From positions 1 through 32,944 of the forward strand of contig MFOC01000004.1 of the NCBI GenBank assembly GCA_001782235.1: a stretch of 32,944 nt of DNA. The letters are read 5' to 3'. Each line of letters opens with the position of its first letter. Position 1 is the first letter of the stretch. Position numbers and translations under genes: made by a program. Below the pieces are notes generated by a model. It saw only the letters and a list, made by a program, of their open reading frames with translations. It was not told the DNA's origin and did no database searches. Positions 2,698 to 32,944 of the stretch are shown here, in pieces. The DNA comes from Candidatus Levybacteria bacterium RIFCSPHIGHO2_02_FULL_40_18. Its GTDB lineage: Bacteria; Patescibacteriota; Microgenomatia; Levybacterales; GWA1-39-11.

Positions 2698-3444
2698 GTG
2701 GATAATATCAAATCCTCCGAAACTTCCGAAGAAAGCGTTGCATTAATAAGCAAATATTCTCCATACCTTGCTGAAGTTAGAAAAAGAATCCTCTTTATCC
2801 TAATAGTTTTTGCAGTCGCGGCAGCAGCAGGTTTTATTTTTTATGAAAGAATAATCAAATTCATAATTGAAATCCTATCGCTTCGCGGAGTTAACATCGT
2901 TTTTACCTCGCCTTTTCAATTTATAAACCTCGCAATTAGTTCTGGTATGGCAACAGGAGTTGTAGCTATTCTTCCTCTTTTAATCTATCAAACATTATCC
3001 TTTTTAAGACCGGCATTGAGACACAAAGAATATAAAATGATAATTAAGACTTTGCCTTTCTCGATAACCCTTTTTTTTATGGGATTTTCTTTTGGAATTC
3101 TTATTATGAAATGGCAAATTCAATTATTTTTGGAAAAGTCAATAGAGCTTGGTATCGGCAACGTCCTGGATATCAGCCGTCTTATAAGCACGGTACTTCT
3201 AGTCTCAGTTTTTATGGGTATTGCTTTCCAATTTCCGATAATCATGATTCTTCTGATAAGCCTCGGAATTGTTAAAACCGGCTATCTGCGAAAACAGCGC
3301 CTGTGGGTTTATTTATTTTCTATTTTATTTCCTATCCTTCTTCCACTGGATTCAATTTTTGCGGATTTCCTGCTTGCATTACCTCTTATAATTCTATTTG
3401 AACTTACGTTAATATTAAATCAAATTTTTAAAAAAAGAAGCTAA
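2698..3444 (+). CDS. tatC: Sec-independent protein translocase TatC
   Basis: 248 residues, usual TatC length, with six predicted transmembrane segments. The N-terminus has YLAEVRKRILFILIVF, equivalent to the conserved H-L-x-E-L-R-x-R-L segment that reads twin-arginine signals; His is replaced by Tyr. FTSPFQFINLAISSGMATG matches the TatC periplasmic/second-helix signature, and FMGIAFQFPIIM is the conserved F-G-x-x-F-x-x-P region. The best start is GTG at 2698; no clear Shine-Dalgarno is seen. It is third in the tat cluster, about 37 bp after the second tatA. TatC with TatA should export folded proteins with twin-arginine signals; no substrate is encoded nearby. Confidence 0.93.
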   Translation: MDNIKSSETSEESVALISKYSPYLAEVRKRILFILIVFAVAAAAGFIFYERIIKFIIEILSLRGVNIVFTSPFQFINLAISSGMATGVVAILPLLIYQTLSFLRPALRHKEYKMIIKTLPFSITLFFMGFSFGILIMKWQIQLFLEKSIELGIGNVLDISRLISTVLLVSVFMGIAFQFPIIMILLISLGIVKTGYLRKQRLWVYLFSILFPILLPLDSIFADFLLALPLIILFELTLILNQIFKKRS

Positions 3445-3453
3445 TACATAGTA

Positions 3454-3482
3454 TTCCAATTCTACTTCGGATTTGCTAAAAT
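3454..3482 (+). promoter_or_regulatory. Promoter of rpmG-uppS, leaderless type
   Basis: TTCCAA (3454-3459), 17-nt spacer, extended -10 TGC-TAAAAT (-10 at 3477-3482). The ATG of rpmG begins 8 nt after the -10, where transcription should start. Confidence 0.6.
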
Positions 3483-3489
3483 ACCCTTT

Positions 3490-3666
3490 ATGGCAAAAAA
3501 GACTGGGGCCCGAATTATTGTAGGCTTAGATTGTACGGTTTGCGGGACACGCAATTATGTCACATCTCGCAACAAACTCAACACCCCTGAGAAACTGAAA
3601 CTTGAAAAATACTGCCGAATCTGCAGAAAGGTTCAAGAACACAAGGAAGTCGAAAAACTCAAATAA
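3490..3666 (+). CDS. rpmG: 50S ribosomal protein L33
   Basis: 58 residues starting MAKKTGARIIVGLDCTVCGT. It has the L33 pattern with two CxxC pairs, Cys15/Cys18 and Cys42/Cys45, which bind zinc in the C+ form. The segment RNYVTSRNKLNTPEKLKLEK-YC is typical of L33. The ATG follows a TGCTAAAAT -10 by 7 nt and there is no Shine-Dalgarno. The stop codon is one base from the uppS start, so the two are probably co-transcribed and translationally coupled. Confidence 0.95.
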   Translation: MAKKTGARIIVGLDCTVCGTRNYVTSRNKLNTPEKLKLEKYCRICRKVQEHKEVEKLK

Positions 3667-3667
3667 A

Positions 3668-4519
3668 ATGACAAAAGCAGAGGATGGAAGATCAATAGGT
3701 ATTCAGGGTAGGGTCAGAGAGGTCCTAGCAAGAGGAGCTCCGAATTTTGTTCGAGAATATGCTATAGAGAAAGAGTGGCAGGAGTCGCTTGCTCGTCTTA
3801 AAGAAAAACTCCCGGAGCTACGAAGAGTAAAAAATAGGCTACCTCGCACTGTTTTAATTATTCCGGATGGCGGAAGAAGATTCGCAAAAGAGCATGGGAT
3901 ATCAGATGAACGAGCTTATAACCTTGGGGCGAGACTTTTGTACGAGGGACTAATGCAGTTTGACGAATTTTCGGAAGTTAAAAACATTATTTTATGGGCA
4001 TGGTCCACGGATAATGAAATAAAGAGACCCAGAGAGCAAAAAGAGGCAGTTTTTAAGACAATGGCCAAATGTCTTGCGGATTATAGAGATGAACTTGTTG
4101 AGAGGAACGCTAGAGTTACAAGAGTTGGAAGAATCGACAGATTAACTTTGCCTCTCGCAAGGGAATTGGGAAGGGCAGAACTGGCAACAGGAGAAAACTC
4201 GGGCACGAATATAATTCTTGCGATTGATTATGGGGAAGATTACGAGGATTCTCTTTTTGCTCAAGAGGTAGCGAGAAGTAATTTGAACGAATGGGCTATT
4301 ACACCCGAACTTGCTGTTCGTTTGAGGGAACAAGCTCGTAGTATTCCGGTTCCGGATTTGGTCATCAGAACGTCTGGAGAATTGCATTTATCCAAGTTCC
4401 CTTATTCAAATCACGCTGAACTCGTGGTAGTTGATACTAATCTTCCCGCTACTATGCCGGACGTTTTTGCGGACGCATTGCTTTCGTATACTAATCGGGA
4501 TATCCGCGGCGGCAGATAA
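3668..4519 (+). CDS. uppS: Isoprenyl (undecaprenyl) diphosphate synthase, divergent
   Basis: A 283-residue cis-prenyltransferase, which condenses isopentenyl diphosphate onto farnesyl diphosphate to make the lipid carrier for cell-wall precursors. Visible motifs: IIPDGGRRFAKEHG (residues 64-77, catalytic Asp67 of the usual MDGNGRWA motif), AWSTDNEIKRPREQ (usually AFSTENWKRP), AIDYG (usually NYGGR), and IRTSGELHLSKF near the C-terminus. Several canonical residues differ: Asn-Gly-Arg-Trp reads Gly-Arg-Arg-Phe, and the Arg of RTGGE-x-R is His. About 60 extra residues precede the core. ATG at 3668 was chosen because it follows the rpmG stop by one base; an open frame continues upstream only inside rpmG. 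The nearby PAP2 phosphatase would make the product usable as undecaprenyl phosphate. Confidence 0.88.
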   Translation: MTKAEDGRSIGIQGRVREVLARGAPNFVREYAIEKEWQESLARLKEKLPELRRVKNRLPRTVLIIPDGGRRFAKEHGISDERAYNLGARLLYEGLMQFDEFSEVKNIILWAWSTDNEIKRPREQKEAVFKTMAKCLADYRDELVERNARVTRVGRIDRLTLPLARELGRAELATGENSGTNIILAIDYGEDYEDSLFAQEVARSNLNEWAITPELAVRLREQARSIPVPDLVIRTSGELHLSKFPYSNHAELVVVDTNLPATMPDVFADALLSYTNRDIRGGR

Positions 4520-7995: not shown

Positions 7996-9069
7996 ATGTT
8001 TGATGGACAAACTTTTGAGGCAGGGCAAAGTTCGCTTCCCGAAAGAGGAACAACAACTCCTATTAAACGAAATTTGTCTCCGTCTCACATGATACAAAAA
8101 CCTCCACCAAGCATGGCAGAAGTCGCGGCCCGAATGACACTTGCAATGACTACCCCTATGGCGGTGTTTGCCGGAGGGAAACTCGCTTATAATGTGAGTA
8201 GCAACATAGACCTTCCTGACGTTATACCCGCTGTTCATCGACATATGGATTCCATGCCATCTGAGAGCCTTCCTCTTGTCGATGAGAGGGATAAAGCAGA
8301 GCTCTCGGTTTACGCTAAGTACGGCCGCGAGAGAATGATGGAATGGCTGAACTTAACTAAACTTTCGAATGCGGATCGCGCAAGAGTTGAGCAGAAGATA
8401 GGCGAAATGAAAAAAGTGATTGAGGAGAACCCAAGTTTTGAAGGAATGAAGAATGTTTTAAGTAATCATGCCCAAAGCTTAATCGAGCTCTCGCAAAAAT
8501 TCGGGATTAATCCTGAAATTGTTCTTTCAGTTTGTCTAATTGAAAACGGAGGGGCAGAGAAAATGGTTTCTCCTGCGGGAGCCATGTGGGAAATGCAGGT
8601 CATGCCCGATCTTCTCTCAACAAAACTTGATCAAAGGGGGATGACTAGAGAGGAATTCGACGCACTTTCAGACCGGGAGAAAGGAGATCTTTTAAGAGAA
8701 ATTGGAGTTGAAAACCTCTCTGACATGTATAAATTGTTTGGCGATTGGGGTTTGGCGGTTTGGGCCTATCATGGAGGACAGGGTAATGTTTATCGAGCGC
8801 TAAAGATTTACTTCGAGGCAGAATTTGATGCCGATAGTTTGCCTTCCGGCGGATTTTTGGAGCTTAAAAATTATTATCGGAAGAAGATCGAAGCGGCGCG
8901 TGAAAGCGATAAGGGGTTTAACTTTTTCATTTTACTTAACGATGAGAGGGTAAAAAATGAAATCTCAGATCTTGAAGACGAAACCGAGCTTTATACTTTA
9001 AAGGTAGCTGCGGCAAACCAAATAATTAACGAACAAATGCCGGACCTCGCTAGGCAAGTTTTAAGATGA
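7996..9069 (+). CDS. Lytic transglycosylase-like protein (SLT domain)
   Basis: 357 residues. A lysozyme-like SLT domain spans about 165-275: FGINPEIVLSVCLIENGG with the catalytic Glu near 183, then SPAGAMWEMQVMP (usual form S-x-G-A-x-G-x-M-Q-x-x-P) and GDWGLAVWAYHGGQGNV (usual form ALAAYNAGPG-x-V). Such enzymes cleave peptidoglycan glycan strands to form 1,6-anhydro-muropeptides. Gly before the Met-Gln is Trp-Glu here. Residues about 33-65 are weakly hydrophobic and may be an inefficient signal anchor; the first 30 residues are unstructured. The last 9 bp overlap the convergent regulator gene. The start is supported by a -10 box 8 nt upstream. Confidence 0.82.
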   Translation: MFDGQTFEAGQSSLPERGTTTPIKRNLSPSHMIQKPPPSMAEVAARMTLAMTTPMAVFAGGKLAYNVSSNIDLPDVIPAVHRHMDSMPSESLPLVDERDKAELSVYAKYGRERMMEWLNLTKLSNADRARVEQKIGEMKKVIEENPSFEGMKNVLSNHAQSLIELSQKFGINPEIVLSVCLIENGGAEKMVSPAGAMWEMQVMPDLLSTKLDQRGMTREEFDALSDREKGDLLREIGVENLSDMYKLFGDWGLAVWAYHGGQGNVYRALKIYFEAEFDADSLPSGGFLELKNYYRKKIEAARESDKGFNFFILLNDERVKNEISDLEDETELYTLKVAAANQIINEQMPDLARQVLR

Positions 9070-9387
9070 TTTGTTGTTTTTTGGTTCAATAAGGCCATTC
9101 CGAATGCCAAGCTCCACGGCTACTCTTATTGTCTCTTCGATAGAAAGTTGACTTTCAGAGACACCAAACCTCTCAAGCATTTTTTCTTTTATGCGTCGCC
9201 TTGATAAAGTTAAAGATTTTGCCGATACCCCAAACGAAATAGCTATTTGCCGGCCGGTCAAACCGTCATGAGTCGCCTGTAAAATTTTTAATTCGAGAGG
9301 GGAGAAGGGATTAAGTTTGGAATATTTTCTCTGATCAGGTGAGTATCTAAAATCCGGCTGACGAGCGCGAGCTTCAGGCGATTTCAT
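9061..9387 (-). CDS. LuxR-type helix-turn-helix DNA-binding protein
   Basis: 108 residues consisting almost only of a LuxR/GerE-type domain: FSPLELKILQATHDGLTGRQ then IAISFGVSAKSLTLSRRRIK, matching the form L-T-x-R-E-x-E-V-L, G-x-x-x-x-x-I-A, S-x-x-T-V-x-x-H-x-x-x-I-x-x-K. No receiver or ligand-binding domain is attached. ATG at 9387 was chosen because a perfect extended -10 (TGC-TATAAT, at 9397-9402) ends 9 nt upstream; an in-frame extension beyond it would lie in the promoter. It converges on and overlaps the transglycosylase gene by 9 bp. Targets are unknown. Confidence 0.8.
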   Translation of the reverse strand: MKSPEARARQPDFRYSPDQRKYSKLNPFSPLELKILQATHDGLTGRQIAISFGVSAKSLTLSRRRIKEKMLERFGVSESQLSIEETIRVAVELGIRNGLIEPKNNKSS

Positions 9388-9429
9388 ATTTTGGAAATTA
9401 TAGCAAATTTTCCGAATGTATATAAGTAA

Positions 9430-9620
9430 TGATGCGGAGCCCCGCACCGTATGGTGTGGGGCGGAGGGGAAAGTTTTAGACCAAGCTAAGCTTGGAATGG
9501 TCGATAAACGACCCTTTCCGCCTCCGCGAATTCTCGCTTCGGCGAGACAAAGTCCGCCTCCGCGATTGTCACCCTCCGGGCGCTATAGCCCTCTGAGCCA
9601 GAGGCCCTTCCGGGAAATTG
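9430..9620. repeat. Cluster of hairpins (palindrome nest)
   Basis: At least five inverted repeats in 190 bp: GCCCCGCACC/GGTGTGGGGC (9439-9462, loop GTAT); an outer stem GCGGAGG plus GGAAAG (9461-9473) pairing with 9514-9527, enclosing CCAAGC-TAA-GCTTGG (9481-9495) and GGTCG-ATAAA-CGACC (9499-9513); TCTCGC-TTCG-GCGAGA (9532-9547); and CCTCTG-AGC-CAGAGG (9590-9604). TCCGCCTCCGCGA occurs twice as a direct repeat. No reading frame here looks real. It sits just downstream of the small-protein island. Confidence 0.7.
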
Positions 9621-9635
9621 ATTCGCATTCCGAAC

Positions 9636-9824
9636 CTATTTGCCTTGCAGTTCGGCAGCTCGTTCGTTGATCTTCTGGCAGATAGCGAGGGCCTCGGACT
9701 GGTCACTACTTGAGATCTGGGCGTTGGGCGGAAATCCCATTTCCCTTGCCGCACGGTGGTCTGGTTCTCCTTGTAGGATAACCGGGTATTCACCAGCGGG
9801 CGTGTGTCCGATTACACGTGCCAC
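9636..9824 (-). CDS. 62-residue miniprotein, paralogue of the next gene
   Basis: Unrecognised. It starts at GTG (9824) behind a near-perfect Shine-Dalgarno, AAGGAGG seven bases upstream, which is rare in this window. The protein has two beta-like stretches (ARVIGHTPAGEYPVILQG), a DHRAAREMG helix, and a C-terminal helix (EALAICQKINERAAELQGK). It aligns along its whole length with the protein at 9893-10072: MAR start, V-I-x-G, D-H-x-A-A-x-x-x, P, then an E-A-(x)-x-x-x-x-K-I helix. Soluble, no cysteine cluster. It is third in a minus-strand series with the membrane miniprotein at 10087. Function unknown. Confidence 0.72.
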   Translation of the reverse strand: MARVIGHTPAGEYPVILQGEPDHRAAREMGFPPNAQISSSDQSEALAICQKINERAAELQGK

Positions 9825-9892
9825 GAGATTCCTCCTTGAGCTTAACCAGTAGTTTGTAAGAGTTTTTGCTTCCGTCTTGGAATGAGAAGACC

Positions 9893-10072
9893 TCAGCTGC
9901 CTTGCTTTGGGCAGGCGCTTTTGATCTTCTCAAGAGCCGACATGGCCTCAGGAAAGGTCCTGTGCTCAAGGGGCACTTCAAGACGCTGTGCTGCCTCGTG
10001 ATCTTCCGGACTGAGACCTCTGATCACGAATGACTTGGTGTTGTCATTCCGTGTTTCGACGATTCGTGCCAC
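9893..10072 (-). CDS. 59-residue miniprotein, paralogue of the previous gene
   Basis: Unrecognised small soluble protein: ARIVETRNDN, then KSFVIRGLSPEDHEAAQRLE, then a helix PEAMSALEKIKSACPKQGS. GTG at 10072 was chosen over the in-frame ATG at 10084 because GGAGG lies at ideal distance before the GTG (it would be inside the coding region otherwise) and because the product then begins Met-Ala-Arg like its paralogue. It is 15 bp after the membrane miniprotein stop and 68 bp before the paralogue. The divergence between copies is large, so the duplication is old. Confidence 0.68.
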   Translation of the reverse strand: MARIVETRNDNTKSFVIRGLSPEDHEAAQRLEVPLEHRTFPEAMSALEKIKSACPKQGS

Positions 10073-10086
10073 TTTTGCCTCCATTG

Positions 10087-10311
10087 CTATTCTGACGGCC
10101 GAATGTGCGAACTTTGTTCGGACGGGCTGTCTCTTGAAAAGGTCACGGCTCTCCTCTCGCTAATAATAGTTGTCAAAGGTAGTAAGTTGCGGTTCGAGCG
10201 CCTTGCCGAGCTGCTAGGCGACCAGTAGAAGAACGCGAATACCACGATTCCTGCGACAAGTGCTTTCGTGCGCGTCTGCATTCTTTTCCGTGCAGTTTTG
10301 GTCGAACGCAT
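10087..10311 (-). CDS. Small membrane-anchored basic protein
   Basis: 74 residues with a basic N-terminus (RSTKTARKRMQTRTK), one hydrophobic helix (ALVAGIVVFAFFYW, about 17-30) and an Arg/Ser-rich tail; inside-positive charge predicts N-in, C-out, or a secreted peptide after cleavage near SSSA. The start is backed by AAGGAGA 6-7 nt before the ATG. It is first gene of the minus-strand small-protein series, with a candidate promoter about 155 nt upstream. The composition is unlike most neighbours. No family recognised, and the tail could be non-native, so this is less sure than its two followers. Confidence 0.55.
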   Translation of the reverse strand: MRSTKTARKRMQTRTKALVAGIVVFAFFYWSPSSSARRSNRNLLPLTTIISERRAVTFSRDSPSEQSSHIRPSE

Positions 10312-10508: not shown

Positions 10509-11576
10509 TTAGTATCCCTTCTTTTTGTCAACGAGGTTTGGCATGGCTTTTTTCTCAAGATACGCTTTCAAATTCGAACAAAAAATATCCATGACGCGAT
10601 CTGTGTAATGGGGTGTCCAGCCGGAATAGTGGGGAGTAATGATTACATTTTCGAATTTCCATAACGGGGAATTTTCAGGTAGCGGTTCGGTCTCAAAAAC
10701 ATCAAGACCCGCCCCGGCAATAACATTTTCTTTTAATGCCCGAATCAAGTCACGTTCAACAACGGTTTTCCCTCGGCCAATGTTTATGAAATAGGCAGAG
10801 CGCTTTCCGCCCGAGGCGGATCCTGCTCCGCGGGACATTATTCGAAATTTCTTTAGATCGAAATATCCTGCGGTCTCACTCGTCAGCGGAAGGCAGTTAA
10901 TAACAAAATCAGAAGTCTTCAATAGTTGGCCAACATCTTTATAAACTTTATGAACATTATGAACTTTATAAACTTTGTGTTTATGTTCAAGCGCCGCGAC
11001 TTTTGCGCCAAGAGCTTTTGCAACCTTGGCAACGCGAGCACCGATTCGTCCGTATCCAACAATTCCGACAGTTGAACTCGCAAGTTCAAAAGGCGCGAGC
11101 GCCTCAACATCTTTAATCCAGCGTTTTTCCTTAACTTGCGCTCGGTGAGCTTTGTGGATTTGTCTTGCAAACATAAGCATGAAGGCTAAAACGTGTTCTG
11201 AAATTGGAATAGGGTGAACGCCTGATGAATTTGTCAAAATAATTTTTGTTGGCAAAAGGATTTTAGCAAGATCGGTAACCCCGGCTGAAGAGGAGTGAAT
11301 CCATTTTAGGTTTTTGGCGGTTTTAAGATCGATTAAGTGTTGTAAGAACGGAGAGGTGATAATAATTTCAGCATCTGGAAGCAGCTTCTTGACCTCAATT
11401 GGGTCCGCGGTCAGGCTGATTTTGGCCTGCGGCACAACCTTTTTAATTTGAGCAAGATGGGTTTTAGTATACGCGGTTATTGTCCTTGTAAGCTTGCCAT
11501 ACCCAATAATCAGAATTCTCACCCCGTTAGAAACTAATCTATAATTTTTTCGCCGAGATTTTCTAACGGGGCTCAC
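10509..11576 (-). CDS. D-isomer-specific 2-hydroxyacid dehydrogenase
   Basis: 355 residues from GTG at 11576. The NAD-binding domain has TVGIVGYGRIGARVAKVAKA, then the catalytic INIGRGKTVVERDLIRAL (Arg), GLDVFETEPLPENSPLW (Glu) and ITPHYSGWT (His). Family members reduce 2-oxoacids with NAD(P)H (for example glyoxylate, hydroxypyruvate or phosphoglycerate dehydrogenases); substrate is not predictable. Three stretches come from repeats: residues 2-18 lie in a 50-bp palindrome (11522-11571), a KVYKVHNVHKVYK stretch lies in a tandem repeat (10938-10986), and SRGAGSASGGKRS lies in a GC palindrome (10800-10840). The native start may be GTG at 11522, giving VRILIIGYG. A TTGTTA-N16-TATAAT promoter ends 8 nt before the outer GTG. 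Confidence 0.88.
   Translation of the reverse strand: MSPVRKSRRKNYRLVSNGVRILIIGYGKLTRTITAYTKTHLAQIKKVVPQAKISLTADPIEVKKLLPDAEIIITSPFLQHLIDLKTAKNLKWIHSSSAGVTDLAKILLPTKIILTNSSGVHPIPISEHVLAFMLMFARQIHKAHRAQVKEKRWIKDVEALAPFELASSTVGIVGYGRIGARVAKVAKALGAKVAALEHKHKVYKVHNVHKVYKDVGQLLKTSDFVINCLPLTSETAGYFDLKKFRIMSRGAGSASGGKRSAYFINIGRGKTVVERDLIRALKENVIAGAGLDVFETEPLPENSPLWKFENVIITPHYSGWTPHYTDRVMDIFCSNLKAYLEKKAMPNLVDKKKGY
11522..11571. repeat. 50-bp palindrome with CCCCGTTAGAAA arms
   Basis: Perfect 12-bp inverted arms, CCCCGTTAGAAA and TTTCTAACGGGG, around a 26-bp AT-rich loop. It sits between the promoter of the dehydrogenase gene and its family-conserved start, so it either encodes an N-terminal extension or forms a leader hairpin. 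A diverged relative lies at about 25174-25222. Confidence 0.75.
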
Positions 11577-20488: not shown

Positions 20489-21370
20489 ATGTCGAAAATT
20501 CGTAAGGCTGTTATTCCGGCCGCCGGGTTCGGTACTCGCTTTCTACCTCAGACAAAGGCGATGCCTAAGGAGATGCTTCCGATAGTTGATAAGCCGGTTA
20601 TTCAGTATGTAGTTGAAGAGGCTGTTGAATCTGGTATCGAAGATATAGTGTTAGTAACTGGCGCGCTGAAGCGAGCTATTGAAGATCATTTTGATGTTAC
20701 AAATGCCGAGCTTCTGAGAAATCTTGAGGCCGGTGGGAAAGAGAAGTTAATCACGGAGACAAATAAGATTTCAGAGATGGCAAACTTTATATATGTACGC
20801 CAGAAAGGGCCATACGGGAATGGTACGCCAGTTCTCGCTGCCGAACCTATTATAGATAAAGAATCTTTTGCGGTTCTTTGGGGAGATGAGTTTATAATAT
20901 CTGATCCTCCCCGTTTAGCTCAAATGATTGAGGTTCATAAAAAATATGGGGGTGTGGTAATCTCAGGTGTTCGAATCGAGAAAAAAGAAGATCTTGCGCG
21001 CTACGGAATTGCGGATCTTGAACATGTGGAAGGGAACGTTTCAAAGATTCGTGGAATTGTCGAAAAACCAAAACCAGACGAGGCTCCTTCACAAATCGCG
21101 GCCCATGGAGCATATATTTTACCCCCAGAAATATTTTCAGCCTTAAAAAGACTCGAACCGGGTCAGGGCGGAGAGATTTGGTTGGTCGATGCTATAAATC
21201 TCCTCCGCGATGATGGCATGCCAATCTATGCGGTAGAAATTAAAAACGGAAAATATTACGACACAGGCAACAAGCTCGAATATATGAAAACCGCAGTAGA
21301 ACTAGCCCTCAAACACCCAGACATAAACGGCGAATTCAAAAAGTTCCTGCGAGATCTTAACCTCAAATAA
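20489..21370 (+). CDS. galU: UTP-glucose-1-phosphate uridylyltransferase
   Basis: 293 residues. VIPAAGFGTRFLPQTKAMPK carries the nucleotide-binding G-x-G-T-R-x-L-P-x-T-K signature, followed by EMLPIVDKPVIQYVVEEAV, WGDEFIISDP (metal-binding Asp), GIVEKPKPDEAPS and GEIWLVDAI. GalU makes UDP-glucose from UTP and glucose 1-phosphate for glycans and cell-envelope sugars. It connects to the galT-like and glycogen genes through glucose 1-phosphate. Transcription starts from a near-consensus promoter immediately upstream. argS follows 41 bp later with its own -10. Confidence 0.95.
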   Translation: MSKIRKAVIPAAGFGTRFLPQTKAMPKEMLPIVDKPVIQYVVEEAVESGIEDIVLVTGALKRAIEDHFDVTNAELLRNLEAGGKEKLITETNKISEMANFIYVRQKGPYGNGTPVLAAEPIIDKESFAVLWGDEFIISDPPRLAQMIEVHKKYGGVVISGVRIEKKEDLARYGIADLEHVEGNVSKIRGIVEKPKPDEAPSQIAAHGAYILPPEIFSALKRLEPGQGGEIWLVDAINLLRDDGMPIYAVEIKNGKYYDTGNKLEYMKTAVELALKHPDINGEFKKFLRDLNLK

Positions 21371-21376
21371 TTTCGC

Positions 21377-21405
21377 TTTACTATTTCTCTTTTTAGCTTT
21401 AAAAT
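21377..21405 (+). promoter_or_regulatory. Promoter of argS, leaderless type
   Basis: TTTACT (21377-21382), 17-nt spacer, TAAAAT (21400-21405), then 6 nt to the ATG at 21412. Confidence 0.6.
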
Positions 21406-21411
21406 TAGAAC

Positions 21412-23253
21412 ATGCAGGTAAGAGAACTCATTGCTCAAAATTTAGAACGGATTGTTCGCAGGATTACGAAAGAGCCGGTTGAGGTGCAGGTTTCGATTTC
21501 TGAGAAATCTGAAAATGGGGATTATTATACAAATGTGGCCTTAAAACTCGCTTCGATCCTGAAACAAAAGCCGCTGGACATCGCGTATAAAATAAAAAGT
21601 GAGTTAGAGAAAGGTATCATGGGTATCAAGGGTGCCACGAGTATCACGGGGGACCTCAGTTCGACGGTCGATAGAATTGAAGCCGTAAATCCGGGGTTTA
21701 TTAATTTCTTCTTGAGCGAGCAGTATCTGCAAGAGACTCTTGAACACATAAATAAAGAAGGTGGCAAATTCGGTAGATCCGAAAAGTTAAAAGCACAGAA
21801 GGTAATGATCGAATTTACTGATCCCAATCCTTTTAAAGAATTTCACATTGGGCATTTGTATTCAAATCTAGTGGGCGAGTCGCTTTCTCGATTATACGAA
21901 TCTTGTGGAGCAACAGTTTGGCGAGTTTGTTATCAGGGAGATGTTGGGCTTCATGTTGCAAAGGCAATTTACGGCATGAAAAAACTTTCAGACCAGATGC
22001 CGGATGATTCTTCGCCGCTTTCGATTCGTGCCCAATTTATGGGCAGAGCGTATGCGCTTGGATCGCGCGATTACGAATCGAATAAAACTGTAAAACAGGA
22101 AATTGACGATCTGAATAAAAAGATATATGAACAAGATTCTTCAGTTCGCGATCTCTACAAAAAGGGAAGAGAGTGGAGTCTTGAATATTTCGATTCTATT
22201 TATAAGCGGCTTGGAACAAATTTTAAGCGCTTCTATTTTGAAAGCGAAGTAGGAGAAGAGGGCGCTCGAATTGTTCGTGAGTTCTTGAAAAAGGGCGTCG
22301 CCCAGCCGCCGGCCCAGAGGGCCTCTGGGCCCGGAGGGAAGGGCTCTGCCCCGGAGGAAGTGTTTGAAGAGAGCGAGGGAGCGATTATTTTTCCGGGTAA
22401 AAAATATGGTCTTCACAATCGGGTTTTTATAAATTCGGCCGGCATCCCAACTTACGAAGCAAAAGACTTAGGTTTGGCGCCAACCAAATACAAGGATTTT
22501 CCCTATGACCAATCGATTATAATCACCGCCCACGAACAGACAGAATATTTTAAGGTCGTCTTAAAAGCGTTGGAACACACCAACCCGGAACTTGCTAAGA
22601 AAACTATGCATATCCCCCATGGAGTAGTACGCTTGCCGGGAAGAAAGATCTCAAGTAGAGCAGGAGAAGTAATCACGGGAGAGTGGTTAATGGATGAGGC
22701 GGTTGCAAGAATTCTCCGTGAGTATCCTGAGATGGCTAGCCCTGAGCGAAGTCGAAGGGATGAGGACACTGCTGAAAAGGTTGGCTTGGCGGCAATAAAA
22801 TACGCTTTACTCCGCGGGACCATTGGCCGCGATATCGAGTTTAATTTTGAAGAATCAATATCATTGACGGGCGCTTCCGGACCCTATCTTCAATATACTT
22901 ATGTAAGAACACGTTCGGTTATCGAAAAGAATCATGAAGCACGAATCATGAATCATGGTAAGCATGCGGAAAATTGGGAATTGGGAATTGGAAATTTGAA
23001 ATTAGAAATTGAAGAACTTAATGTTCTTCGTCAGTTGGTTCATTTCGAAGAAACTGTTGACGAAGCGCAAGATAGACTGTCCCCAAACCTAGTTGCTGAA
23101 TATCTGTTCGATTTAGCCTCAAAATTCAACCTGTTTTACCAAAAGCACAGGATCGTCGGCAATTCGTTTCGCTTAGAATTAACAAGAGCTGTTGGGCAAA
23201 CTATCAAAAACGGCCTCGTGCTTCTCGGCATAGAAACGGTTAGGAAGATGTAG
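21412..23253 (+). CDS. argS: Arginyl-tRNA synthetase carrying four repeat-derived insertions
   Basis: 613 residues against about 550-580 usually. It charges tRNA-Arg. Class I motifs: FHIGHLYSNLVGESL (HIGH) and the KMSKS-equivalent GRKISSRAGEVITG; VNPGFINFFL is the end of the N-terminal Add-1 domain and the anticodon-binding domain is at the end. Four stretches are out of place and match repeat sequences: about residues 67-87 (GIMGIKGATSITG, GTATCA-type repeat), about 296-316 (PPAQRASGPGGKGSAP, GC palindrome), about 443-450 (SPERSRRD, from CCCTGAGCGAAGTCGAAGGG) and about 507-533 (NHEARIMNHGK, then ENWELGIGNLKLEIEE). All keep the frame and avoid the active-site motifs. Confidence 0.95.
   Translation: MQVRELIAQNLERIVRRITKEPVEVQVSISEKSENGDYYTNVALKLASILKQKPLDIAYKIKSELEKGIMGIKGATSITGDLSSTVDRIEAVNPGFINFFLSEQYLQETLEHINKEGGKFGRSEKLKAQKVMIEFTDPNPFKEFHIGHLYSNLVGESLSRLYESCGATVWRVCYQGDVGLHVAKAIYGMKKLSDQMPDDSSPLSIRAQFMGRAYALGSRDYESNKTVKQEIDDLNKKIYEQDSSVRDLYKKGREWSLEYFDSIYKRLGTNFKRFYFESEVGEEGARIVREFLKKGVAQPPAQRASGPGGKGSAPEEVFEESEGAIIFPGKKYGLHNRVFINSAGIPTYEAKDLGLAPTKYKDFPYDQSIIITAHEQTEYFKVVLKALEHTNPELAKKTMHIPHGVVRLPGRKISSRAGEVITGEWLMDEAVARILREYPEMASPERSRRDEDTAEKVGLAAIKYALLRGTIGRDIEFNFEESISLTGASGPYLQYTYVRTRSVIEKNHEARIMNHGKHAENWELGIGNLKLEIEELNVLRQLVHFEETVDEAQDRLSPNLVAEYLFDLASKFNLFYQKHRIVGNSFRLELTRAVGQTIKNGLVLLGIETVRKM
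22295..22360. repeat. GC-rich palindrome in-frame inside argS
   Basis: Perfect stem GGCCCAGA/TCTGGGCC (22311-22331, 5-nt loop) flanked by GGAGG/CCGG-rich sequence. It encodes PPAQRASGPGGKGSAP. It resembles the intergenic elements at 2455-2496 and 9588-9615. Confidence 0.7.
22740..22759. repeat. Short palindrome-like repeat in-frame inside argS
   Basis: The 20-bp sequence CCCTGAGCGAAGTCGAAGGG encodes part of SPERSRRDE. The GAGCGAAG core is shared with the 77-bp hairpins. Confidence 0.6.
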
Positions 23254-23259
23254 AAGACC

Positions 23260-23808
23260 TTACTTTTTTGCTATAAGATGCGGGTTTCTCCATGGGTGGT
23301 CGGGAGGTGGGATCGCACTTCCCCTGCGGATTTTTCGAGTGTCCGTAATAGCTGTTTTGTTTTGATATCTCTTTTGACTGCGTCTTCCCTCGGTGCTTGT
23401 CATTCCCGTTTGAAGTACAACCACCGCCTCACAAAATACCTGTTTGGGAGCGGTACTCGTTATTATCCCGTAATCATCTCTTAGGTGCCTTATAGTTTCG
23501 GTAAATAGATTTGGGTCTTCGGGATAATTTTTTGTCTTTAATTTGTCGTCCGCCGAAGCCGCGATGTCCTCAAGCTGGATTATAAGGACATCTCCAGCTG
23601 TTGACTTCCAATCATCGCGGCAGAGAAGAGAAGCAACATTTAGAAGGGCTAAAATTCTTTTTTCCAAATATTCTCTTGGGGTATCTTCCCAATTTCGGCA
23701 TTTATATTCTCCGACCGCGCGCCTAACAGCCTGACGTCTTTCATCCTGAGGATCTTTCTCATGAAAATGCGTTCCGCGATCATTTTGCCTATCTGCTTCT
23801 GTTGTCAT
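23260..23808 (-). CDS. Unknown 182-residue protein
   Basis: Not recognised. It begins MTTEADRQNDRGTHFHEKDP, has a helical, charged middle (EYLEKRILALLNVASLLCRD, then DVLIIQLEDIAASADDKL), a region with RDDYGIITSTAPKQVFCEAV and a basic C-terminal tail. No membrane segment. The frame stays open upstream, but ATG at 23808 is chosen because a TTGCAA-N17-TAAAAT promoter ends 10 nt before it. It is divergent from the M16 peptidase gene and ends 6 bp from the argS stop. Confidence 0.65.
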   Translation of the reverse strand: MTTEADRQNDRGTHFHEKDPQDERRQAVRRAVGEYKCRNWEDTPREYLEKRILALLNVASLLCRDDWKSTAGDVLIIQLEDIAASADDKLKTKNYPEDPNLFTETIRHLRDDYGIITSTAPKQVFCEAVVVLQTGMTSTEGRRSQKRYQNKTAITDTRKIRRGSAIPPPDHPWRNPHLIAKK

Positions 23809-26449: not shown

Positions 26450-27232
26450 GTGGATCAAAATAGAACTCTGACAAAAAGGGAACTAAAGGCGCTTAAGCGT
26501 CTTGAGAAGTTGGATCAACAAAGACAGGAAAAGTCTCAAAATTCTTTAAAATGGATTATTTTAGGGATGGGCGCATTTCTTTTCGTTGCCTTTTTTGCTT
26601 CCCTAATATTTCTTGCAAAACAAAATTCTCAAAAACCGGCTAAACTTTCCTCTAACGGTTGGGTGAAAGGGGGCGGACTGAGCGCGAGCGAGGGAGCCCG
26701 GCTGCGAAGCGACAGCGGAGACAGCGGTGGTAGTACTCCGAAAGTAACGCTAATTGAATTCGAAGACTTTCAGTGTCCAGCCTGTAAAACTTATCATCCG
26801 ATTGTTCGCGATGTCTTAAATTCTTATGACGGGAAGAGTTTCAAACTTATGTTCAAGCACTTTCCATTGACCTCGGCCCATAAAAATGCATTTGCCGCAG
26901 CAGTGGCGGCAGAAGCGGCGGGGGCGCAGGGAAAGTTTTTTGAAATGCACGATCTTTTGTATGAAAGACAGGACGAATGGGCAATGCTATCCGCAGCTTC
27001 CGCCCGCGAAAAGTTCATAGCCTATGCGAATGGACTTAAGCTTAACGAGGGTAAATTCGTAAAAGATCTCATAAATAAAGACCTGGAAGAAAAAATTCGT
27101 GCAAATCAAAACGAGGGTATAAATAATGGCGTTTCGGGAACGCCCACCTTTTTCTTAAACGGTAAACTAATTCAAAATCCCAGAACTGTTGACGATTTTA
27201 AGAAACTGATTGACGAAGAACTAAAGAAATAG
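26450..27232 (+). CDS. Membrane-anchored DsbA-like thiol oxidoreductase
   Basis: 260 residues. A basic N-terminus and one transmembrane helix (about 34-56) anchor an outside thioredoxin-fold domain with active site Cys109-Pro-Ala-Cys112 and the cis-Pro loop SGTPTFFLNG near 228. Such proteins introduce disulfides into exported proteins. Residues about 73-94 (GGGLSASEGARLRSDSGDSG) are a linker encoded by a GC-rich repeat of GCGAGCGAGG/GCGAAGCGACAGCGG type, inserted between anchor and catalytic domain where length is tolerated. GTG start, 5 bp after the previous stop. The partner DsbB-like gene follows. Confidence 0.9.
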   Translation: MDQNRTLTKRELKALKRLEKLDQQRQEKSQNSLKWIILGMGAFLFVAFFASLIFLAKQNSQKPAKLSSNGWVKGGGLSASEGARLRSDSGDSGGSTPKVTLIEFEDFQCPACKTYHPIVRDVLNSYDGKSFKLMFKHFPLTSAHKNAFAAAVAAEAAGAQGKFFEMHDLLYERQDEWAMLSAASAREKFIAYANGLKLNEGKFVKDLINKDLEEKIRANQNEGINNGVSGTPTFFLNGKLIQNPRTVDDFKKLIDEELKK

Positions 27233-27252: not shown

Positions 27253-27357
27253 GAAAATGGTTATGGGAAGTAGATATTAGAAATTGGTTTTTTAATTTTT
27301 GCTATTTTCTATTTTCCAATTTCTATTACTAATTTCCATTTTCCAATAACTATTTTC
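27253..27357. repeat. AT-rich imperfect inverted repeat between the dsb genes
   Basis: GAAAATGGTTATGGGAAG...AGAAATTGG on the left pairs, with gaps, with its reverse complement on the right (CCAATTTCTATT...AACTATTTTC). Motifs like TTAGAAATTGG also occur in an in-frame stretch of argS (about 22975-23015). No gene is seen in the 133-bp spacer. Confidence 0.6.
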
Positions 27358-31110: not shown

Positions 31111-32909
31111 GGCCAAAGATAGGGCCGGCATTTTTTGACTACGTAACTGGTTCGCAAAATGACAGAAGGCCTAAAAGACAAAATCTCGAGCTTTCGGAGC
31201 TCTTAAGATTACTTCCACTATTTTTCCTGCTACTTTCCACAGGCGTTATTATCGCGAGGCTTTTCTACCTACAAGTAATTAGAGCAAGTTACTATAAAGA
31301 TCTTTCGGAAAACAATCGTACTCGAACAAAAATAATTCCTGCTCCTCGAGGAATAATCTATGATAGGAATGAAAAGCCTCTTGTTTCAAATAGCCAGATT
31401 TTCCCTGTTCCCCGCGAGCAGGCTTTAAAATTAATGTCAGAAGGCAAAAAACTTCAAAGCGTTGTTCGAAGAGAATATTTATATAAGGATGCCTTTGCCC
31501 ATGTCGTGGGATTTCTAGGCCAAATTTCAGAAGATGAGGTAATCCTACCAATATTTTCAGAATATGCGCTATCCGAAAGCATTGGGAAAATAGGTCTTGA
31601 AAAAACATATGAGAAGGTACTTCATGGTCAAAATGGCAGAGAGTTATTGGAGGTTGACGTACATGGTCGGGAGATGAGGGCACTTGGAGAAAGGGAGCCT
31701 GTAAGAGGCCAAAATTTACATACTACTCTTGATTTAGACTTACAGCTTTTGATCAAAGATGCAATGTCAGAAGTTGAACGGGGAGCAGTTATCGCCCAAG
31801 ATCCAAAAACAGGCGGCATCCTTGCTCTTTACTCAAAACCATCTTTTGACCCAAACATCTTTACCCTTCGACTCCCCTTCAAGTCCGCTCAGGGTCGCTC
31901 CCCTCGATCGGACTCGGGGCAGGCAGGGCAGGCTGTCTCTTCTGGTAGTTCGGCAGAATATCAAAGCGCTGAAGAAATACTAGCAGATGATGAAAATCAG
32001 CCGCTTTTAAATCGTGCGATAGGCGGAGTTTACCCACCGGGATCAACATTCAAGCTTGTTACAGGAGTTGCCGCACTCGCAACAGGCGCGATTCGCGAAG
32101 ATACAATTATAGAAGATACGGGAGTTTTAAAAGTTGGTGACTTTTCCTTTGGAAACTGGTATTTTCTAGAGTATGGTAAAAAAGAAGGCCCACTTAACAT
32201 AGTGGCCGCAATTAAGCGCTCAAACGATATATTCTTTTACAAAGCCGCAGAAAGGGCAGGGGTTGAAAACATCTCGTCTTTTTCTCGCGAATTTGGCTTC
32301 GGAGCAATATTTGGAATTGATATTGTGGGCGAAGCAGAAGGTCTGGTTCCATCACCTTCTTGGAAGGAAAATGAAATCGGCGAACAATGGTATCTTGGGG
32401 ATACTTATAATTATGGCATAGGACAAGGATATCTTTTAACAACGCCTCTTCAGATAAATGTAATGACAAGTGTATTTGCCAATGGGGGGACTTTATACAG
32501 GCCGCATTTAGTAGATTCGCAAAAAAAGATTTTAAAGAAGAGTTTTATTAAAAAGGAATATCTCGATCTAGTTCGTGAAGGGATGCGGCAGTCATGTGAG
32601 AGAGGCGGCGTGGCATGGCCATTCTTTGATTTTAAAGTAAAGAATGAGAGACTACCCATTGACAACCATGATTTTATCGAGGAGGGAAGCGGCAGCGCAA
32701 AAATAGTTCGCATAAAAGTTGCATGCAAGACTGGAACTGCGGAAGTTTCGGACAAAGACAAAAACCCGCATGCATGGATCACGGTTTTTGCGCCGTTTTA
32801 TGATCCTGAGATAGTCCTAACTGTTTTGGTTGAAAATGGAGGAGAGGGGTCAAGTGTTGCCGGCCCAATCGCCAAAAAAATCCTCCAGAATTATTTCGAG
32901 AAAAAGTAG
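31098..32909 (+). CDS. mrdA: Penicillin-binding protein 2 (elongation transpeptidase)
   Basis: 603 residues. Transmembrane helix (about 36-57), pedestal domain with RTKIIPAPRGIIYDRN, then the transpeptidase: Ser-Thr-Phe-Lys near 316 (YPPGSTFKLVTG), Ser-Asn-Asp (KRSNDIFFY) and Lys-Thr-Gly near 544 (ACKTGTAEV). PBP2 cross-links peptidoglycan during elongation. Residues about 256-284 (LPFKSAQGRSPRSDSGQAGQ and a few more) come from a GC-rich palindromic insert (31862-31955) between the pedestal and the catalytic Ser and do not fit the family. The start overlaps mreD. A rodA gene would be expected next, outside the window. Confidence 0.95.
   Translation: MVKIGPKIGPAFFDYVTGSQNDRRPKRQNLELSELLRLLPLFFLLLSTGVIIARLFYLQVIRASYYKDLSENNRTRTKIIPAPRGIIYDRNEKPLVSNSQIFPVPREQALKLMSEGKKLQSVVRREYLYKDAFAHVVGFLGQISEDEVILPIFSEYALSESIGKIGLEKTYEKVLHGQNGRELLEVDVHGREMRALGEREPVRGQNLHTTLDLDLQLLIKDAMSEVERGAVIAQDPKTGGILALYSKPSFDPNIFTLRLPFKSAQGRSPRSDSGQAGQAVSSGSSAEYQSAEEILADDENQPLLNRAIGGVYPPGSTFKLVTGVAALATGAIREDTIIEDTGVLKVGDFSFGNWYFLEYGKKEGPLNIVAAIKRSNDIFFYKAAERAGVENISSFSREFGFGAIFGIDIVGEAEGLVPSPSWKENEIGEQWYLGDTYNYGIGQGYLLTTPLQINVMTSVFANGGTLYRPHLVDSQKKILKKSFIKKEYLDLVREGMRQSCERGGVAWPFFDFKVKNERLPIDNHDFIEEGSGSAKIVRIKVACKTGTAEVSDKDKNPHAWITVFAPFYDPEIVLTVLVENGGEGSSVAGPIAKKILQNYFEKK
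31862..31955. repeat. GC-rich repeat in-frame inside the PBP2 gene
   Basis: Contains CTTCGACTCCCCTTC, GTCCGCTCAGGG, CCCC...GGGG inverted pieces and GGCAGGCAGGGCAGGC. The CTTCGAC/GCTCAGGG parts are the reverse of the CCCTGAGCGAAGTCGAAGGG repeat in argS. Confidence 0.6.
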
Positions 32910-32944
32910 AGAAGAGTATCAAGAGTATCAGGGGTTTGTGAATT
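32910..32944 (+). repeat. GTATCA short repeat at the window end
   Basis: GAGTATCAAGAGTATCAGGGG repeats a GTATCA unit. The same unit builds the first insertion in argS (21612-21650). Confidence 0.5.

Follow-up and report, generated by a model that had tools for sequence, protein, structure and literature searches.

Palindromic DNA that reads in frame inside working genes is known chiefly from Rickettsia and otherwise as a minor feature of REP sequences. The Rickettsia palindromic elements (RPEs) are about 150 bp long and encode a conserved peptide (Ogata et al., 2000, 2002; reviewed in PMC10969869). REPs with a GTAG or CGTC tag measure 20–40 nt and are partly intragenic, and RPE-4 and RPE-6 were re-described as CGTC REPs (Di Nocera et al., 2013, PMC3733652). 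The part of that account considered here also describes CGTC REPs without a dedicated transposase and intragenic REPs in X. oryzae, E. litoralis, and S. alaskensis, where tRNA synthetases are among the genes affected; for GTAG repeats, it names phyla other than Patescibacteria. According to the same part, in-frame REPs in genes, even in those of tRNA synthetases, are already known from other bacteria. Heptameric simple sequence repeats were reported in Xanthomonas and Nostoc (PMC4692102), and TAACTGA heptamer repeats were reported in Beggiatoaceae (PMC4679880). A literature search for the 20-mer analyzed here and for in-frame palindromic repeats in Patescibacteria found none, and a prior description elsewhere is possible.

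The genome studied here (G000) is a 995-kb draft, in seven contigs, of an uncultured Candidatus Levybacteria organism belonging to the Microgenomates of the Patescibacteria, and the window analyzed is a stretch of 32,944 nt on contig 4; argS and its features, the PBP2 and DsbA-like inserts, and the repeat copies at 2460–2490 and 32916–32930 described below lie on its forward strand. An ORF of 613 codons (21412–23253) was identified as full-length argS, encoding arginyl-tRNA synthetase (ArgRS), by its 75–77% identity to the enzyme from two genomes of the same genus (G001 and G002) and by phmmer matches to solved ArgRS (2zue, E = 3e-44; 6ao8, E = 6e-38). The HIGH motif is intact (21844–21855; residues 145–148), with H145, G147, and H148 invariant in the alignment. 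The KMSKS equivalent is also intact and was placed by alignment at residues 412–416 (22645–22659), where it reads KISSR here versus KMSSR in nearly all relatives. With HIGH, the KMSKS equivalent, and solved homologues, the product has the features of a class I ArgRS. An earlier note on this DNA had claimed that argS carries four repeat stretches that keep the frame and avoid both motifs. All four were confirmed, each at most a few bases off the proposed position, within an uninterrupted ORF; all are frame-preserving and lie outside HIGH and KISSR. Because the congeneric ArgRS are 75–77% identical, the gene could be compared insert by insert, using a codon alignment with G001 and G002 and a protein alignment with 29 relatives (the two congeners and 27 other members of the order).

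Stretch 2 (22294–22356) is a GC-rich in-frame insert of 63 nt encoding 21 residues (GVAQPPAQRASGPGGKGSAPE), and it belongs to a GGCC..CTCT..GGCC double-hairpin family, whose copies were aligned. It is missing from G001, G002, and the 27 other aligned order members, where the flanks align directly. With 6-nt flanks, it folds at −40.6 kcal/mol, better than all 400 windows taken from the same gene. A different hairpin (PPASLDAKHLRA) occupies the same loop in the ArgRS of an unrelated order member (G048, locus L024), apparently as an independent event, and other hairpin-like inserts occur elsewhere in the orthologues of G040, G015, G044, G010, and G020.

Stretch 3 (22735–22758) is an in-frame insert of 24 nt, GCTAGCCCTGAGCGAAGTCGAAGG, encoding the eight residues ASPERSRR. 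This insert is likewise missing from both congeners and the 27 other aligned order members, with flanks that align directly. It represents one copy of a GCTTG-tagged TGAGCGNAGTCGA hairpin family and matches the element end to end, the limits of the insert in the codon alignment being the GCTTG tag and the foot of the hairpin. As RNA it folds at −5.3 kcal/mol, which alone is not an unusually good fold. The codon alignment shows GATG on either side of the 24-nt insert; this does not establish a target-site duplication, since reading it as one would put the gene out of frame.

The other two stretches are of another kind. Stretch 1 (21613–21650; residues about 68–80) is a tandem tract of the GGTATCANG (GTATCAnnn) nonamer, detected by Tandem Repeats Finder with period 9, which in the codon alignment is common to G002 and nine codons shorter in G001. 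Stretch 4 (22929–23011) lies in a hypervariable linker before the anticodon-binding domain and consists of AATCATG and AAATTGG heptamer tracts, which Tandem Repeats Finder resolved with period 7 at 22929–22957 (GAATCAT) and 22971–23011 (AAATTGG). The AATCATG heptamers are common to G002, where they are the sole type; the AAATTGG heptamers are common to G001, where private GACAACT heptamers also occur. On the codon alignment, neither stretch 1 nor stretch 4 is a single insertion; both are tandem tracts undergoing turnover, with length and type varying between congeners. Of the four, only stretches 2 and 3 are clean insertions when set against the nearest relatives. Therefore, two processes, hairpin insertion and tandem tract variation, replace the single process that had been proposed for all four. 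The insert-free versions of ArgRS that the earlier note had suggested looking for were seen in both same-genus genomes and in the 27 other order members.

An AlphaFold model of ArgRS, built from an 18-sequence alignment, had a mean pLDDT of 87.6. The only segments with pLDDT below 50 were 72–79 (between helix 54–70 and 82–85), 296–312, 444–447 (between helices 423–437 and 449–467), and 517–528 (between helices 490–514 and 533–542), which correspond to stretches 1, 2, 3, and 4, respectively. The model places all four between secondary-structure elements and thus predicts the loop position that had been anticipated for them. The low pLDDT suggests that the stretches may be disordered, although it is partly expected because no homologue covers those columns.

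Copies of the elements were counted in 433 kb of the genome, window included, with ORFs taken from simple greedy calls rather than curated genes. The families recur more often than chance would give: compared with Markov-simulated sequence, TGAGCGAAGTCGAA (up to two substitutions) had 18 sites versus 2–4 simulated (11 of them inside ORFs), GCCTCTGGCCCGGA had 17 versus 2–3 (13 inside ORFs), and GTATCAnnnGTATCA had 10 versus 0 (4 inside ORFs). The in-ORF copies of these three are read in several frames and in both orientations, and the coding fraction of the sample is 85%. Of 14-mers, 213 occurred at four or more separate sites versus 3 in simulated sequence. Arrays of period 7 (52) and period 14 (35) were found in the same 433 kb and none in the simulations; 40 of these 87 arrays lie inside ORFs. 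The 20-mer, when reversed as a backward control, had no copy in the genome, and an Rfam scan of 21300–23400 matched no family.

It had also been claimed that each stretch has relatives between genes in the window. This was borne out for the GTATCA type, with an intergenic copy of the nonamer family found by site search at 32916–32930; for the GGCC type, with a hairpin copy between conserved genes at 2460–2490 (within a probably spurious 92-aa minus-strand ORF) and a further relative at 9592–9605; and for the AAATTGG type, with a relative at 27264–27357. It failed for the CCCTGAGCG element, which has no second good copy within the window, the nearest being a scrambled copy in the PBP2 gene. Taken together with the alignments, the family counts uphold in-frame uptake from several repeat families in a putative essential enzyme.

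In this genome, the first hairpin family has the form GCTTG-CCCT-GAGCGNAGTCGA-AGGG, and other copies carry TCCT..AGGA or TGGT..ACCA arms. The tag is GCTTG in this genome and GTTTA or TGTCA in most of the other Patescibacteria copies that were read. The SSTGAGCGNAGTCGAASS pattern was present in 71 of 286 Patescibacteria genomes, compared with 0 for the reversed control. Besides CC/GG, the arms among the listed places were GG/CC in 23 cases, GC/GC in 4, and mismatched in 6. Paired double changes thus far exceed mismatched arms, and these compensatory changes across Patescibacteria indicate structural constraint on the TGAGCGNAGTCGA family. Exact copies of CCCTGAGCGAAGTCGAAGGG were also found in 36 stretches of a viral collection (L145–L180), many of them with a CCGTTCG tag, which suggests that the hairpin core may be widespread beyond Patescibacteria with other tags.

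Members of the second family form a double hairpin, GGCCTCCGGCCC-(G)GAGG-GCCTCTGGC-CCGGAGGG, of which compensated GGGGCTCTGCCCC copies (GGGC..GCCC) exist. With up to two mismatches, GGCCTCTGGCCCGGAGGG had 32 copies in G000, 3 in G001, and 1 in G002; five other family members had none, and the backward control gave 0. Judged by these copy numbers, the GGCC double hairpin has multiplied recently and specifically in this lineage.

Inserts of this type were not confined to argS. By orthologue comparison, the PBP2 gene contains a 63-nt in-frame insert, LRLPFKSAQGRSPRSDSGQAG (31866–31928), which holds the scrambled TTCGACTC..GTCCGCTCAGGG element and is missing from the orthologues of G001, G002, G004, and G015. 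A DsbA-like thioredoxin gene contains a GC-rich in-frame insert of about 57 nt (26669–26725, boundaries approximate) that is missing from the G001 and G004 orthologues. Over 157 orthologue pairs of G000 and G002 (66.9% identity), inserts of at least four residues numbered 30 in G000 and 27 in G002. Among the G000 inserts of at least seven residues, 11 of 19 exceed 95% of same-gene windows in folding stability, where about one would be expected; the counterpart for G002 was 3 of 10. An 11-mer recurrence score gave 2 of 19 and no discrimination, and it is uninformative because AT-rich coding 11-mers recur anyway. ArgRS has three inserts relative to G002, for which simulation gave a chance of 0.5% if ArgRS is named beforehand. 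As a special target, ArgRS was rejected: with 30 inserts distributed over 157 proteins, some protein receives three in 78% of simulations.

The argS elements resemble RPEs in that several palindromic families occur both between genes and in frame inside the genes of unrelated working enzymes. In both cases, the insertions are considered compatible with the fold of the protein. The analogy with RPEs drawn in the earlier note is apt. Unlike RPEs (about 100–150 bp with a conserved translated peptide), the present elements are 24–63 nt long, are translated in more than one frame and in either orientation, occur in a different phylum, and are accompanied by tandem heptamers as a second source of inserts. 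With REPs they share a short hairpin with a conserved loop, paired arms, and many copies, some of them within genes, and, like CGTC REPs, they are linked to no dedicated transposase. The end tag, however, is GCTTG here (GTTTA or TGTCA in other Patescibacteria) instead of GTAG or CGTC, and the sampled copies lie mostly within ORFs and not in intergenic regions. GTAG REPs flank a RAYT gene, which is not so for the four Y1-domain genes of this genome. The elements differ from RPEs in length and peptide and from GTAG/CGTC REPs in tag; therefore, they are not classed as members of either group, although they work alike. Similarly, tandem 7-nt arrays are over-represented in the genome as in bacteria with heptameric repeats, including the cyanobacterial STRR. 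Known heptameric repeats are mainly intergenic, whereas nearly half of the period-7/14 arrays here are in ORFs, three units of 7 nt encoding a repeat of seven residues. Many different unit sequences coexist here.

The explanation that we consider very probable is that the frame-preserving DNA in ArgRS came from two sources, REP/RPE-type hairpins and heptamer or nonamer tandem tracts. GC-rich hairpins, namely the 24-nt GCTTG-tagged element with the CCCTGAGCGAAGTCGAAGGG core and the compound 63-nt GGCC..CTCT..GGCC double hairpin, would rise in copy number and enter numerous coding and non-coding sites, presumably moving as hairpin DNA. Insertions into genes would persist only if they are divisible by three in length, contain no stop in the frame used, and fall in a loop that separates secondary-structure elements; purifying selection would then retain the in-frame copies in loops, where they may be nearly neutral for ArgRS. 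The heptamer and nonamer tracts would lengthen and shorten by slippage and build up in the loops and linkers that also tolerate the hairpins. The joint presence of several hairpin families and heptamer tracts in the genes for ArgRS, PBP2, and many other proteins of this streamlined bacterium implies that genome reduction does not bar repeats from essential genes. Close relatives whose proteins have or lack the inserts offer a natural series for measuring tolerance. In practice, residues that stem from repeats can confound the annotation, phylogeny, and structure prediction of Patescibacteria proteins.

The stretches might instead be ordinary lineage-specific variation in ArgRS loop length that is repetitive by accident. 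Loop and linker lengths do differ across the whole alignment, and stretches 1 and 4 are each common to one congener and differ mainly in length; stretches 2 and 3, however, are missing in all close relatives and belong to dispersed families with some intergenic copies. These dispersed copies largely refute accidental repetition for stretches 2 and 3, and as an account of all four it is quite improbable. The palindromes could also have formed at their present sites through template switching or hairpin-primed repair, without movement of existing elements. This would fit several near-perfect palindromic inserts without an obvious family, such as CCCCGCACCGATGCGGTGCGGGG, and the tandem duplication that elements do undergo (the 24-bp GSTGSPQG array described below). 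Members of a family are nevertheless almost identical in sequence at unlinked sites, and TGAGCGNAGTCGA is phylum-wide. De novo formation would not give such recurrence, and the near-identical copies therefore argue against it and make it unlikely. An artefact of assembly or binning should be weighed for a metagenome-derived draft in seven contigs whose named relatives are MAGs, but it is hardly credible, given that long ORFs stay open across inserts at many loci, the same families are found in dozens of genomes that were assembled independently, and different inserts occur at related places in other relatives.

A further question is whether IS200/IS605-like Y1 transposases (RAYTs) encoded in this genome mobilize the hairpins, as in a canonical REP-RAYT system. 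Four stand-alone Y1 transposase-domain genes in G000 and the conserved 5-nt tag preceding the hairpin, as in REPs, are consistent with this possibility. Across the 286 genomes, Y1 presence was also associated with element presence (35/50 versus 101/236; OR 3.1; Fisher p = 5e-4, phylogeny ignored). Against it, the tags differ from GTAG, being GCTTG in this genome and GTTTA or TGTCA in others; none of the four Y1 genes is flanked by TGAGCGNAGTCGA, with a single GGCC copy upstream of one; and two element-rich genomes, G186 with 20 copies and G193 with 14, have no Y1 match. Such genomes rule out a RAYT as a necessary mobilizer, and a canonical REP-RAYT system here is doubtful. As for the reading preferred above, uptake from hairpins and tandem tracts, we would only tentatively extend it to the idea that phylum-wide, structure-conserved tagged hairpins multiply in genomes that lack a dedicated transposase of their own and, jointly with heptamer tracts, give core proteins new loops, which would make tolerated insertion into essential genes a main route of protein-length change in reduced genomes.

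Several minor observations were made. One Y1-domain protein (L123, 1243–2391, on contig 6 of G000) has an extra C-terminal part, and a GGCC-type hairpin lies just upstream of its gene. In the D-2-hydroxyacid dehydrogenase gene of the window, a nonamer tandem repeat, CTTTATAAA (10937–10976), encodes KVYKVHNVHKVYK, and a possible GC-rich insert, GAGSASGGKRSAYF, is present in the same gene; no close orthologue of this gene was found in the congeners. At L075 (5788–5907), a 24-bp hairpin of the TTCGAC..GCTCACC family is present in five tandem copies inside a gene and is translated as GSTGSPQG repeats. Hairpin inserts were also seen within heptamer tracts, for example GTTGTCAGTAGTCAG-hairpin-TTGTCAATTGTC (L062, 19773; L067, ORF 8795–10208; L065, ORF 2965–3751); hairpins may favor such tracts as landing sites or be better tolerated there. 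Finally, positions 1–1928 of the window encode a large Ser/Pro repeat protein (SPSVSPSQSPSAS) with a 12-nt repeat unit, which is likely a surface protein, and its C-terminal segment (1804–1901) is near-duplicated at 2080–2177.
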